Shown here one piece after another: positions 14,066 to 48,952 of a stretch of 64,000 nt of DNA. The position numbers and the translations under genes are program-made. The notes under the pieces are model-generated. The model worked only from the letters and a program-made list of their open reading frames with translations. It had not been told where the DNA came from and did no database searches. Position 1 is the first letter of the stretch. Each line of letters opens with the position of its first letter. The stretch is from Arenimonas fontis (GTDB taxonomy: Bacteria > Pseudomonadota > Gammaproteobacteria > Xanthomonadales > Xanthomonadaceae): NCBI RefSeq assembly GCF_008386465.1, contig NZ_VUOD01000002.1, positions 1 to 64,000 of the forward strand, read 5' to 3'.

Positions 14066-14131
14066 CCCTCCAGCCTGGGCGATGCTCCGGTGCCCGTGCC
14101 GTCCGCCAACACGGGATCATCGGGGAGGAAA

Positions 14132-14503
14132 ATGGCGCAGGTCCGCATCATCAAGAAGTATCCGAACCGTCGGCTCTACGACACCGGGATCTCCAGCTAC
14201 ATCACGCTGGAGGACGTGCGCCAGCTGATCGTCGAGGGCGAGGAGGTATCGGTGCGCGACGCCCGCACCGGCTCCGACCTGACCCGGGTGGTGCTGATGC
14301 AGATCATCGCCGAGCAGGAACCACAGGAGCAGCCAGTGTTCACCAACGAACTGCTGACCCTGGCGATACGTTTCCACGGTGGCAGCCAGCAGGCCCTGCT
14401 GTGCGATTGTCTCGAGCGCAGCCTGCGGAACTTCCTGGAACAGCATCGGCAAGCGTCCGGCCCGGGCGAGCCCGGGGCCGTCGCGCCGTTCCGTCGCCGC
14501 TGA
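14132..14503 (+). CDS. phaR: Polyhydroxyalkanoate synthesis regulator PhaR-like protein
   Basis: The 123-residue protein has the PHB/PHA accumulation regulator DNA-binding domain at its N-terminus: KKYPNRRLYDT, then ISSYITLEDV. PhaR proteins bind DNA and polyhydroxyalkanoate granules and repress phasin genes. At 123 residues it is shorter than many homologues (about 180), keeping one copy of the accumulation domain. A GGGGAGGAA ribosome site precedes the ATG. No polymer synthase is in the window, so the target genes lie elsewhere; it may have another role in this genome. Confidence 0.88.
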   Translation: MAQVRIIKKYPNRRLYDTGISSYITLEDVRQLIVEGEEVSVRDARTGSDLTRVVLMQIIAEQEPQEQPVFTNELLTLAIRFHGGSQQALLCDCLERSLRNFLEQHRQASGPGEPGAVAPFRRR

Positions 14504-14646
14504 GCGTCCAGGGCCGGACGCCTCCCGCCCGCACCGCTTTGCCGGACCCGGCGCACCGATTCGAGAAACCGGGTCCGGCGCGACTGTACCGGCACGGACC
14601 CAGGCGCCCCCGCTCCGCCGCCGGCGTGTCGCCCGAGCGCAAGCCG
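14504..14646. other. Intergenic stretch after phaR, nothing recognised
   Basis: This spacer follows phaR and leads into the structured element at 14651. I see no open frame with coding character and no clear terminator with a T run. Confidence 0.5.
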
Positions 14647-14806
14647 CTAGGGCAACGCTGATCAAGTCAGCGTTGCCCGCGCGCCATGGATGGCGCGCCC
14701 GCTGACCAAGCACGCAAGTGCTTGATCCGCGGGAGCAAGTCCGGACATGTGCCGGACTTGCGATCACTGAACACGTCCAGGATGGACGTGTTCAGTGTTG
14801 CCCTAG
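14647..14806. mobile_element. MITE-like element of five hairpins with IS5-type ends (element 14651-14802)
   Basis: The 152-bp body is flanked on both sides by CTAG (14647-14650 and 14803-14806), a YTAR-type target duplication. Its ends read GGCAACGCTGATCAAG and, on the other strand, GGCAACACTGAACACG. These resemble the ends of the IS5-family element at 47791-48948 (GGAAACTCTGAACAAA and GGAAGGTCTGATCAAC). Inside are five inverted repeats in a row: 14650-14661/14667-14678, 14679-14685/14692-14698, 14707-14713/14718-14724, 14735-14744/14752-14761 and 14765-14778/14784-14797. It has no coding capacity. It sits between phaR and the convergent SUMF1 gene, whose TAG stop lies inside the right duplication, and may act as a transcription barrier. 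Confidence 0.75.
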
Positions 14807-16740
14807 ATCTCGCGCACCACCCGGAAGCCGACCCGCGGATTGGTACTGGCCGCCGGCGCCGCCTGCCGCGCCGCCGAGCGCGCCCGCTCCAGGGTGCTGG
14901 CCCAGGACGCGCCGCGCACCACCCGATCCTCGCAACCCGGGTTGACCCACGCGCTGCCGTCACCGGGCGCGCGCCGGTAACTGTCATGCCAGCAGTCCAG
15001 CACCCATTCCGACACATTGCCGATCAGGTCGTAGGTGCCGTAGGGCTCGGCCGGATAACTGCGCACCGGCGCCGGCCCCCAGTGGCCGTCCGAATAGCCG
15101 GTGATGGCGTTGGCCCAACGCCGGCCGATGCCCGACTGGTCGCCGTCGCCGGTCAGATTGCCGACCGTGCGCGCCGGCGCGCCCGTGCCCCAGGGCCAGG
15201 GGTCGGTGCTTCCGGCCCGCAAGGCATATTCGAACTCCGCCTCGGTGGGCAGCCGGTAGCGTTGCCCGGTCTGCGCCGACAGCCAGGCGGCGTAGGCCTC
15301 CGCATCCTCGAAGGAGACATGCACCACCGGCAGCTCCGGCGCAGCCGGCCGGCCAGTGTAGTCGTGCCGCCAGTCCACGCCCTCGCGTTCCGCCATCACG
15401 CCTCCGCGCTCGTCGTAGACCAGCGAACGGCCACGCCGGGTTGCCGTCGATCGGTAGCCGCTTGCCTCGACGAAGCGGCGGAACTCGGCCACTGTCACTT
15501 CGTTGCGGCCGATGGCGAAACCGCGCGCGAAGCGGATGGTGTGCGCTGGCGCCTCGGCGGGCTGGTGATGCGGCTCGTCCTGATTCGAGCCCATGCGGAA
15601 CCGGCCATGCGGCAGCACCACCATCTCCGGCCCCTCGCCACCACTGGCCAGTGGTTCCCGGAACACCTCGCCCGGCCGGAAACGACCGTAGTGCCTGGCC
15701 AGGGCGATGCGTTGCGACAAGCCCTCCAGACCCTGGGCCTGGACGCTGGCCCGCCCGGCCTCGGCAAGGCGGCGTTCGGCCAGGTCCAGATCGAGCGCGT
15801 CCACCGCCGCGTGCCCCTGCGCCAACAGTTGTTCGGCGCGCTGCTGGCGCAGTTCGACGATGCGCGCGGACAGGTCCTGCAAGACGGCCGAATCCGGCAG
15901 GATGCGCGCCGCCTCCGCCAGGTAGCGCTCCGACGCCGGGTAGTCGCCCGCCTGGGCGGCCTCCAGGGCCAGGTTCAGGCGGTCTGACTGCAGCCGGTTC
16001 AGGCCGTCCAAAGCCGGCAGGTATTCCGGAAACGCCGTCAGGGCCTGGCGGTAGGCCGCCACCGCGCCCGCCCCCTCCGGCCGGAGGATACGCCCTGCCT
16101 TGGCCCGGGCTTCGGCCAGGCGGACTGCCGCCTGGGCCCGACGGGCGGCCTCCAGGGCTTCCCGAAAACCAACCAGGGCCGGATCCTGCGGCGTCGCCCG
16201 GGCAAGCACCCGCTCCACGCCTTCGGCTTCCCGCAAGCGGCCGGCCAGCAGGGCAGCGCGGCCGCGCGCCTGCAGCAGGGCGGCGACCCTCTCCAGCCCT
16301 TGCCGGGCCGCCGGATGCTCTGGTTCGACCGCCAGTACGGCCAGGTAGATTTCCAAGGCGCCCGGCGACCGCTCGGATAAAGCCGTGTCGGGAAGCATCA
16401 CCGCCGGTTCCGGCTCTCCCGGAAGGCGACCGCCGGCCACCAGCATGCCCGCCTGTTCCAGGCTCTCCGCCTCGCGCAGGGCCGTGCGCAGGTCCCCGCG
16501 CGTCAGCGCCGGCAGCTGCGGCTGCCAGTCGGGCACGGGCGGCTGTTCGGCTTCCGGTTCGGGGACGACGTCCTGCTCGAGCCCGGCCGGGTCCACCGCC
16601 GGCAGGGGTTCGACCACCGCCGCCTCGCCGGCATCCCCGTTCGGGCTCGGCGCGTCGCCGCCTTCGCCGGAGCCGCCGCAGGCGGCCAGCGTCATGGCCA
16701 GCAGCAGCAAGGCCGGCAGGTTTCTCGGCAGTGCATTCAT
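14803..16740 (-). CDS. Lipoprotein with coil/TPR-like region and C-terminal SUMF1 (formylglycine-generating-like) domain
   Basis: The 645-residue protein begins with a lipoprotein signal peptide (LAMTLAAC, modified Cys21). The middle, about 60-400, is Ala/Arg/Leu-rich and helical, with repeat-like segments. Residues about 410-645 form an FGE-sulfatase/SUMF1 domain: GRFRMGS, NEVTVAEFRRF, HVSFEDAEAYAAWLS, RLPTEAEFEYA, GNVSEWVLDC and VRGASW. Such domains outside sulfatase maturation are common beside bacterial kinases and often have no known substrate. I chose the ATG at 16740, which starts the lipoprotein signal; an ATG ten codons upstream is possible. The stop TAG falls in a MITE target duplication. 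Confidence 0.85.
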   Translation of the reverse strand: MNALPRNLPALLLLAMTLAACGGSGEGGDAPSPNGDAGEAAVVEPLPAVDPAGLEQDVVPEPEAEQPPVPDWQPQLPALTRGDLRTALREAESLEQAGMLVAGGRLPGEPEPAVMLPDTALSERSPGALEIYLAVLAVEPEHPAARQGLERVAALLQARGRAALLAGRLREAEGVERVLARATPQDPALVGFREALEAARRAQAAVRLAEARAKAGRILRPEGAGAVAAYRQALTAFPEYLPALDGLNRLQSDRLNLALEAAQAGDYPASERYLAEAARILPDSAVLQDLSARIVELRQQRAEQLLAQGHAAVDALDLDLAERRLAEAGRASVQAQGLEGLSQRIALARHYGRFRPGEVFREPLASGGEGPEMVVLPHGRFRMGSNQDEPHHQPAEAPAHTIRFARGFAIGRNEVTVAEFRRFVEASGYRSTATRRGRSLVYDERGGVMAEREGVDWRHDYTGRPAAPELPVVHVSFEDAEAYAAWLSAQTGQRYRLPTEAEFEYALRAGSTDPWPWGTGAPARTVGNLTGDGDQSGIGRRWANAITGYSDGHWGPAPVRSYPAEPYGTYDLIGNVSEWVLDCWHDSYRRAPGDGSAWVNPGCEDRVVRGASWASTLERARSAARQAAPAASTNPRVGFRVVREI

Positions 16741-16830
16741 CGGCGGCGGCCGGGCCGACAGCCCGGACATGGACGGGGCGGCCCGAACTTAGGCTAAGGT
16801 GCCGCCTCCTGTAAACCGCGGTCTCACACC

Positions 16831-17963: not shown

Positions 17964-18039
<76 letters not shown>

Positions 18040-18738: not shown

Positions 18739-18815
18739 GGCCCCGTAGCTCAGCTGGATAGAGCATCCCCCTCCTAAGGGGAAGGTCACACGTTCGAATC
18801 GTGTCGGGGTCGCCA
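18739..18815 (+). tRNA. tRNA-Arg (anticodon CCT)
   Basis: The 77-base cloverleaf has acceptor strands GGCCCCG and CGGGGTC, D arm GCTC/GAGC, anticodon stem TCCCC/GGGGA around CTCCTAA, and T arm ACACG/CGTGT around TTCGAAT. The anticodon CCT reads AGG. Discriminator G and CCA are encoded. The codon is rare in a GC-rich genome. Confidence 0.96.
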
Positions 18816-47786: not shown

Positions 47787-48952
47787 CTAAGGAAACTCTG
47801 AACAAATCAGCCTGACTGGGCGACAATAGCGCACCGTATCTGGAAAGACGATCGATGCAGCTGACGTTCGGTGACGCCGAGGACCTGGGCCAGCGCAAGC
47901 AGACGCGCCGGGAGCTGTTTCTGGCCGAGATGGAGCAGGTGGTGCCGTGGCAGGCGCTACTGGGTCTGATCGAGCCGCACTACCCGAAGATGGGCCGCCC
48001 GGGCCGGCCGCCGTATCCGTTGGCGACGATGCTGCGCATCCACTTTTTGCAGCAGTGGTACGCGCTTTCCGACCCGGCGATGGAAGAGGCGCTGGTCGAC
48101 ACCTCGGTGATGCGCCGGTTTGCCGGGATCGGCGGGCTGCACGCCATCCCGGACGAGACGACGATTCTGAACTTCCGGCGTTTGCTGGAGCAGCACGGCC
48201 TGGCCGGGAAGCTCTTTGCGCAGGTCAATGCGCACCTGCAGCGCAAGGGGCTGAGCCTGCGGTCGGGGACGATCGTGGATGCGACGATCATTGCGGCGCC
48301 GAGTTCGACCAAGAACCGGGAGGGTCAGCGCGACCCGGGGATGCACCAGACGAAGAAGGGCAACCAGTGGCATTTCGGGATGAAGGCGCACATTGGGGTC
48401 GATGACGAATCCGGCCTTGTTCACCATGTGCAATGCACGGCGGCGAACGTGGCGGATGTGACCCAGATGCACAAGCTGCTGCATGGGCACGAGGAGACAG
48501 TGTGTGGCGACAGCGGCTACACCGGGGCGGACAAGCGCGCCGAGTTGCAGCATGTTGATGCGGGCTTCCTGATCGCGGAGAAGCCGTCGAAGCTGCGGGC
48601 GATGAAGAACAAGCGCGACCGCCACTACGCCGCGCGGTGGGAGCACTACAAGGCCAGCGTGCGCGCGAAAGTCGAGCATCCGTTCCGGGTGATCAAGCGG
48701 CAGTTCGGCTACACCAAGGTGCGTTACCGCGGGCTGGCGAAGAATGCGGCGCAGGTGTTGACGCTGTTCGCGTTGTCGAACCTGTGGATGGCGAGGCGAC
48801 GGGTGTTGCAACCGACGGGATAGATCCGTCCGATGGACGGGAAACCCGGTCGAAAACGGCTCGAAATGGCGTAGATTTGGTCAAACCGAGCCTGGTCGGG
48901 CGCTCGACGCTGAAATCAAGCGGTCAAGGCGCGTTGATCAGACCTTCCCTAA
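47787..48952 (+). mobile_element. Complete IS5-family insertion sequence (47791-48948) with CTAA duplications
   Basis: The 1,158-bp element carries one transposase gene and has imperfect terminal inverted repeats of about 28 bases (19 matches); ends read GGAAACTCTGAACAAATC and, on the other strand, GGAAGGTCTGATCAACGC. It is bordered by CTAA at 47787-47790 and 48949-48952, a YTAR target duplication typical of the IS5 group. The duplicated stretch covers the TAG stop of the small gene downstream, so the insertion did not damage that gene. The structured element at 14651 has similar ends. Confidence 0.92.
47855..48823 (+). CDS. IS5-family transposase
   Basis: The 322-residue protein has an N-terminal DUF772-type domain (MGRPGRPPYPLATMLRIHFLQQWYALSD) and a DDE domain: IVDATIIAAPSSTKN (first Asp), GDSGYTGADKRAEL (second Asp) and VEHPFRVIKRQFGYTKVRYRGLAKN (Glu). 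All three acidic residues are present, so it should be active. It cuts and pastes the element and possibly the small element at 14651. Confidence 0.95.
   Translation: MQLTFGDAEDLGQRKQTRRELFLAEMEQVVPWQALLGLIEPHYPKMGRPGRPPYPLATMLRIHFLQQWYALSDPAMEEALVDTSVMRRFAGIGGLHAIPDETTILNFRRLLEQHGLAGKLFAQVNAHLQRKGLSLRSGTIVDATIIAAPSSTKNREGQRDPGMHQTKKGNQWHFGMKAHIGVDDESGLVHHVQCTAANVADVTQMHKLLHGHEETVCGDSGYTGADKRAELQHVDAGFLIAEKPSKLRAMKNKRDRHYAARWEHYKASVRAKVEHPFRVIKRQFGYTKVRYRGLAKNAAQVLTLFALSNLWMARRRVLQPTG

Follow-up and report, generated by a model that had tools for sequence, protein, structure and literature searches.

A hairpin-rich IS5-type MITE of Arenimonas fontis and its relatives carries a conserved pair of GGA loops that resemble CsrA/RsmA sites

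Introduction

What is the 152-bp body (14651-14802) that lies between two CTAG repeats in the Arenimonas fontis DNA analyzed here, and what could be the use of its elaborate fold? The stretch, referred to as the window, comprises 64,000 nucleotides of contig NZ_VUOD01000002.1 (assembly GCF_008386465.1). A first-pass annotation, made from the letters alone, had described the element as a miniature inverted-repeat transposable element (MITE) composed of five successive inverted repeats, mobilized in trans by an IS5-family transposase, with an interior that could act as a transcription terminator or as a structured RNA. In this study, we examined the fold, the relatives, and the mobility of this element. 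The point that goes beyond the annotation, which had not remarked it, is a conserved pair of GGA loops, and we argue that RNA of the plus strand is probably a ligand of the CsrA/RsmA type.

Results

Five hairpins with rewritten stems

Folding of 14651-14802 as RNA predicted five consecutive hairpins on either strand (HP0 to HP4, Table 1), with energies of -105.8 kcal/mol for the plus strand and -108.8 kcal/mol for the minus strand, in comparison to about -58 kcal/mol for shuffled sequences. With z-scores of -12.6 and -13.3, respectively, and not one of 200 shuffles being equally stable, the stability of the fold is far beyond chance. The 152-bp body between CTAG repeats and its five successive inverted repeats were thus correctly recognized by the first-pass annotation. 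The outer stem of HP4 overlaps the right terminal repeat.

In BLAST searches, the element had matches in 17 of 100 genomes (its own included), often with the inner part only, and in some relatives similar inner hairpins were enclosed by ends of a different sequence. The covariance model made for HP1-HP4 was based on 34 sequences and 35 base pairs, with 17 of the 34 sequences stemming from a pattern scan that required CAGGA after HP3. With this model, the carriers detected were 49/250 genomes for the order, 20/274 for the class, and 36/299 for the phylum, and each count includes the genome of the element itself. Of the phylum carriers, 33 do not belong to the class, and 27 of these share a single family, perhaps within the Zetaproteobacteria. 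Carriers among the pattern-scan matches listed (at least 115 stretches) included Rhodanobacter, Dyella, Aquimonas, Rehaibacterium, Mizugakiibacter, Pseudomarimonas, and Lysobacter.

In the alignment of the 34 sequences (A1), 26 of the 35 pairs were changed on both sides, and 92.8% of the cells were paired, as compared to 77.2% in shuffled and 29.6-42.6% in slid controls. In the class alignment (A3), which was model-fitted and included two antisense rows, 34 of the 35 pairs were changed on both sides, and 95.3% of the cells were paired (65.6% shuffled, 30.0-46.5% slid). The stems were rewritten as far as AT-rich versions in AT-richer genomes. This stem covariation strongly supports the structured-RNA option that had been raised for the interior.

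Conserved GGA in the loops of HP1 and HP4

For the loops, we counted distinct cores on the sense strand (94, 29, and 18 in the order, class, and phylum sets), leaving out antisense shadows and repeats. Cores with a predicted fold of more or fewer than four hairpins (14, 3, and 0) were excluded, so that 80, 26, and 18 remained, in which GGA was scored within the loop and the two base pairs that close it. HP1 contained GGA in 76/80, 24/26, and 17/18 cores (order, class, phylum), HP4 in 74/80, 25/26, and 18/18, and both hairpins together in 71/80, 24/26, and 17/18. The control hairpins had far fewer, namely 0/80, 1/26, and 1/18 for HP2 and 18/80, 2/26, and 0/18 for HP3, and the complement TCC occurred at most once per set and hairpin. 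When the class and phylum sets were pooled, GGA was present in 41/44 HP1 and 43/44 HP4 hairpins versus 2/44 for each control hairpin. The stricter motif A(N)GGA was still found in 72/80, 22/26, and 16/18 of the HP1 and in 66/80, 21/26, and 16/18 of the HP4 hairpins.

HP1 and HP4 read CANGGAUG and CAGGANG, with GGA mostly in the context ANGGAN, and the N that precedes GGA in HP1 was observed as each of the four bases. Outside the order, the symmetry-centered columns of HP1 (42 of 44 hairpins) were C 97, A 95, N, G 100, G 100, A 95, U 76, and G 100 per cent, and its outer stem columns were at 45-83%. At 37 places, the BLAST alignment ended before HP4 (by position 118), and 29 of these had GGA in the next hairpin; several of the 8 HP4 misses look truncated.

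The two other hairpins have loops of their own: across loci, the HP2 loops are GNRA-like, and the HP3 loop reads, for example, ACAUGYG, UCACAC, or CCACGC. The conservation of these loops is unexplained by CsrA.

Resemblance to CsrA/RsmA sites and distribution of csrA

The consensus site of CsrA is RUACARGGAUGU, with GGA mostly in six-base hairpin loops, and RsmE contacts an ANGGAN hexaloop (PMC7652899). As in sequestering RNAs, the GGA motifs of the present elements lie in apical loops and in ANGGAN context. The host genome carries csrA. In the phylum draw, csrA was present in 34 of the 36 carriers versus 180 of all 299 genomes (Fisher p 2e-6 in a test blind to kinship), and the two carriers without csrA are genomes of only 74% and 69% completeness. 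In one genome of the same class (G673), nine csrA-type genes occur together with nine element matches.

Some genomes contain tandem arrays of 3-5 units with a period of about 117-133 bp, which multiply the GGA loops. The arrays L041-L044 (genome G061) and L048 (genome G071) consist of HP1-HP4 units between which the left terminal hairpin is missing, and with up to five units they line up about ten GGA loops. A GC-rich tandem array (L245, G448:C36) is different, as the HP1 loop of two of the three units folded is GATAA and not ANGGAN; this array is a natural comparator without CsrA-type loops.

Dispersed copies and target duplications

The genome (2.63 Mb in 32 contigs) contains four full copies of the MITE at four separate places, the other three being 95-97% identical to the window copy. 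With 152 bp, the element is too short for a transposase gene, as expected for a bacterial MITE, and its 22-nt terminal arms, CTAG counted in, are 86% complementary. A YTAR target duplication is a mark of the IS5 group, and the CTAG duplication in the window fits this rule, as had been proposed. For the full copies, the first-pass annotation had led us to look for dispersal, YTAR duplications at each copy, and empty sites in relatives. The dispersal was evident, and the flanks formed a YTAR pair at the window copy (CTAG/CTAG) and the C31 copy (TTAA/TTAA), whereas those of the C27 copy (CCAG/CTAG) and the C28 copy (TTAA/TTTA) were imperfect. BLAST with the element gave no match in any of 26 congeners. 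In the congener loci, gluQ adjoined phaR in 19 of 19 cases and the FGE gene was within reach in 16 of 19, so the gene neighborhood is kept, but the intergenic DNA of the congeners has diverged too far to define an empty site to the base.

Identical flanking 4-mers were found in 20 of 28 type-A relatives with recognizable ends (pattern GGNNNNNCTGA) and in 4 of 5 type-B relatives. The identical type-A duplications followed YTAR in 17 of 20 cases, the others being GTAG, CTTG, and TTGA. These counts used ends of fixed length and cover 28 type-A and 5 type-B elements out of 124, the rest having unrecognized ends or sharing flanks. End patterns of loose length had given identical flanks in only 5 of 25 cases; they were judged to be misframed by one base and were replaced by the fixed-length ends.

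The four dispersed copies, the absence from the congeners, and the identical 4-bp flanks of relatives, mostly YTAR, support the MITE claim, and the element is almost certainly an IS5-type MITE. A single copy conserved in all relatives, which the annotation had named as the outcome that would speak against mobility, was not what we observed, and the dispersed copies and the absence in congeners led us to reject the idea of a domesticated RNA gene or of one locus that is conserved. A spread via phages or plasmids is unsupported, as our queries gave no match in viral contigs, plasmids, phages, or Escherichia coli genomes; each of these queries was a single element or pattern, and distant relatives may therefore be missed.

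Apart from the full copies, the family model gave two weak matches in the own genome, C12:184428-184544 (L201, E 1.1e-9) and C1:398260-398378 (L202, E 1.1e-7), which may be old, decayed copies. The former lies about 10 kb from csrA (C12:194560).

The resident IS5-family element as a candidate transposase source

An insertion sequence (IS) in the window encodes a transposase of the IS5 family (NF033581, E 5.9e-108) and is present in two full copies in the genome. Its ends are GGAAACTCTGAACAAA (at 47791) and GGAAGGTCTGATCAAC (at 48948). Over 16 positions, either end of the MITE has 12 identities to the left IS end, and the two ends have 11 and 9 identities to the right IS end, so that the earlier description of ends differing at few positions was a little generous. 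A score of at least 12/16 with either MITE end was reached by 19 of the 127,968 16-mers on both strands of the window, the real ends included. Allowing up to 2 mismatches, such ends occurred at 14 places in the genome, of which 12 belong to the MITEs (8) or the two IS copies (4) and 2 are single sites. The link to IS5 is supported by the transposase family and by this distribution of ends, and the transposase of the resident IS or of a close relative is the most likely candidate for moving the MITE, with the differences at 4 of 16 end positions being the reason for caution regarding this very IS. An autonomous element with hairpins inside was not found, although no systematic search for one was made.

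The two IS copies (window 47791-48948 and G000:C29:93980-95143; L038, L039) are mosaic: their first 120 and last 500 bases are near-identical, and bases 120-660 are only 73-92% alike, as if from recombination or gene conversion.

Layout of the locus

The features of the locus are compiled in Table 1. The only Rfam matches of the window at gathering score are two tRNA genes (17964-18036 and 18739-18812).

Table 1. Positions of the element, its hairpins, and neighboring features in the window.
Feature	Position	Strand	Basis
phaR (polyhydroxyalkanoate (PHA) synthesis repressor), listed open reading frame upstream of the MITE	14090..14503	+	PF07879, TIGR01848
Left target duplication CTAG	14647..14650	.	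Sequence; fits YTAR
HP0, left terminal repeat folding back on itself	14650..14678	+	Fold
Left terminal inverted repeat GGCAACGCTGATCAAG	14651..14666	+	Arm comparison; pattern GGNNNNNCTGA in relatives
HP1, apical loop AUGGAU (14686-14691), proposed CsrA/RsmA site 1	14679..14698	+	Fold, GGA conservation
HP2, GNRA-like loop GCAA	14699..14732	+	Fold; stem covaries
HP3, GCAAGTCCGG-ACATGTG-CCGGACTTGC	14735..14761	+	Fold; stem covaries outside the order
HP4, apical loop AGGAU (14779-14783), proposed CsrA/RsmA site 2	14765..14797	+	Fold, GGA conservation
Right terminal inverted repeat GGCAACACTGAACACG	14787..14802	-	Arm comparison
Right CTAG, in which the FGE-sulfatase gene (minus strand) has its stop codon TAG	14803..14806	.	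Sequence
FGE-sulfatase (SUMF1-like) domain gene, convergent to phaR	14803..16770	-	PF03781
IS5-family insertion sequence, candidate transposase source	47791..48948	+	CTAA on both sides

Discussion

A mobile CsrA/RsmA docking site?

Mobility signature, common architecture, covariation, conserved loops, and the occurrence of csrA in most carriers are observed features of this family, and we propose the following mechanism to account for them. The element, a non-autonomous IS5-type MITE, would be moved in trans by an IS5-family transposase, and its cargo would be a folded RNA and no gene. Its plus strand, which is the GGA strand, would be transcribed, probably by read-through from the neighboring gene, which is phaR at the present locus. 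The transcript would then expose two (A)NGGAN loops of the CsrA/RsmA type that are spaced by two rigid hairpins, and CsrA/RsmA could bind this pair, making each copy a mobile CsrA docking site. In cis, such binding might alter the stability, the Rho access, or the translation of the host transcript, and in trans, many or tandem copies might titrate CsrA as CsrB or RsmZ do.

Transcription, CsrA binding, and any regulatory effect are deduced in this scheme from sequence data, and our confidence decreases along it. That the plus-strand RNA is a CsrA-type ligand is the prediction that we regard as probable, whereas we predict only tentatively that the element docks CsrA or serves as its decoy in vivo. 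With similar reserve, we suggest that the family may be a proteobacterial transposon superfamily with a CsrA/RsmA RNA ligand as its only cargo, in which single copies dock and arrays are CsrB-like sponges.

Several aspects weigh against this proposal. The covariance model itself contains the GGA letters, which could have favored the recovery of GGA loops. Two checks are weaker but less exposed to this bias. One is the set of 37 places with BLAST alignments ending before HP4, of which 29 had GGA in the next hairpin (see above). The other was based on 30 places that had been found by ends and an identical duplication only, within loci already fetched for such elements and with two places sharing a locus: 28 of them had at least two GGA loops on one strand, and the remaining 2 had one GGA loop each. 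The units of the G448 array that were looked at lack GGA in HP1. With 27 carriers in one family, kinship confounds the association with csrA, which is consistent with dependence and no proof of it. No sigma-70-like promoter was detected in 14400-14900 or in the two arrays examined. The GGA strand also showed no preference relative to the flanking genes, as 36 elements were co-directional and 30 antisense, with 33 in convergent and 20 in divergent gene pairs (119 classified out of 182 places on the basis of rough open reading frame calling, 18 being incomplete and the rest having been dropped as duplicates or for short flanks). A selection for the sense orientation to genes is therefore unsupported (36 versus 30). 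With no promoter-like site and no preferred orientation found, the target of selection seems to be the element and not the 3' ends of host transcripts. Moreover, CsrA binding may be weaker when a hairpin is very stable (PMC7652899), and the stems of the element are long. Finally, two sites per unit are few beside CsrB.

Alternative explanations

It could also be that we are dealing with an ordinary IS5-type MITE, in which hairpins and loop letters are kept for needs at the DNA level, for example because the transposase or some other factor that binds DNA recognizes a cruciform or a single-strand hairpin, and RNA and CsrA are irrelevant. This would agree with the terminal repeats and duplications, which are those of a DNA transposon, with the inclusion of the terminal repeats in HP0 and HP4, and with the lack of a detected promoter and of an orientation bias to genes. 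We nevertheless consider it unlikely, albeit deserving serious attention, as GGA is kept only in HP1 and HP4 and on one strand while stems and terminal repeats change, and as the free positions are exactly those that are free in ANGGAN; binding of a transposase would be expected to fix letters of stems or ends and not those of loops.

If the conserved entity is an RNA, it could serve another protein, or RNA processing or stability, and the GGA loops could be CsrA-like by convergence. The GNRA-like loops of HP2 and the own conserved loop of HP3 point in this direction and suggest that more than CsrA may be involved, and HP3-HP4 of three relatives weakly matched the gyrA RNA model RF01740, below the gathering score. 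The close match to the CsrA/RsmA consensus at both sites and the presence of csrA in 34 of 36 carriers argue against it, and we regard such a convergence as improbable. That the MITE delivers a transcription terminator, as raised by the first-pass annotation, or an insulator is the least plausible option. The fold is very stable on both strands, the element sits between convergent genes, and convergent pairs outnumber divergent ones. However, there is no terminator-like site in 14400-14900, the T-tract sites of one array are opposite to the GGA strand and a second array has none, and termination would not keep loop letters, so that the terminator assignment was not borne out.

Implications

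Promoters, terminators, and DNA-binding sites are features that transposons are already known to disseminate. If the CsrA/RsmA ligand proposal is correct, regulons would have a new way to grow, namely through a transposon that disperses a conserved module by which RNA is recognized by a global regulator, and this would also be a possible source of sequestering RNAs. A selfish element might thereby buffer or rewire the central post-transcriptional switch of its host and seed new CsrA-controlled genes. As the family is deep, its loops represent a natural collection of CsrA-type sites on widely differing stems.

Comparison with known systems

Among published elements, MITEPsy1 of Pseudomonas syringae pv. 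phaseolicola comes closest in its ends; it has 100 nt, transposes in vivo, and has ISPsy2 (possibly IS5) as its presumed parent (PMC3189936). Its ends GGAAGGTCTGAAAAAGCC and GTATCCTCTGAAAAAGCC and its duplication CTAG or YTAA resemble the type-A ends and their mostly YTAR duplications; the comparison extends to the ends only, and the present elements are longer, with about 152-161 nt. A pattern of ends for MITEPsy1-like 100-nt elements gave no match in 16 genomes, 11 of them presumed pseudomonads, and a similar ends pattern gave none in viral contigs.

A known Rfam family did not account for the element, as no family reached its gathering score inside it and none matched the four own copies at E <=5. 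Elsewhere in the loci, L003 219-333 (+) on G000:C31 matched the Xanthomonadaceae small RNA (sRNA) asX1 (RF02235; 71.7 bits, gathering score 70), and L013 1968-2103 (G061) matched the Y RNA-like YrlA with 50.4 versus a gathering score of 69. In the TwoAYGGAY motif, AYGGAY strings sit in two loops; no match to this motif was found among the loci scanned. Its name refers to AYGGAY strings, which are ANGGAN-like (PMC2864571). The gyrA RNA motif RF01740 is known from Pseudomonas (PMC2864571). Its model matched HP3-HP4 of L011, L020, and L028 with 37.2, 37.1, and 27.2 bits and matched none of the four full copies of the own genome; with a best score of 37.2 versus the gathering score of 45, and in relatives only, membership in this family was rejected.

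In the literature searched, which comprised open-licence papers only, we found no report of a CsrA-binding MITE. The 5'tnpA RNA of IS200 in Salmonella is similar in being a transposon-derived RNA that acts in the host, and its authors moot CsrA titration and count three GGA motifs (PMC12594629). It differs in that it stems from the IS200 transposase mRNA and not from a MITE, and CsrA titration is one of the possibilities named there (PMC12594629). From the same order of bacteria as the present host comes RsmU of Xanthomonas campestris, an RsmA-binding RNA from an mRNA 3' untranslated region with predicted GGA loops; the text of this report mentions no transposon (PMC7694677). RsmU also teaches caution, as changing all four of its GGA motifs failed to abolish RsmA binding (PMC7694677).

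The functional counterparts would be CsrB/CsrC and RsmX/Y/Z. Unlike genes of the CsrB/CsrC type, the module had no detectable promoter or terminator of its own (14400-14900; one array has T-tracts on the opposite strand). The likeness lies in GGA motifs in apical loops and in several sites per RNA (PMC7652899), with arrays of up to five units in the present case. Whereas CsrB/CsrC and RsmX/Y/Z are fixed sRNA genes, the module described here lies between transposon ends and has two conserved sites per unit.
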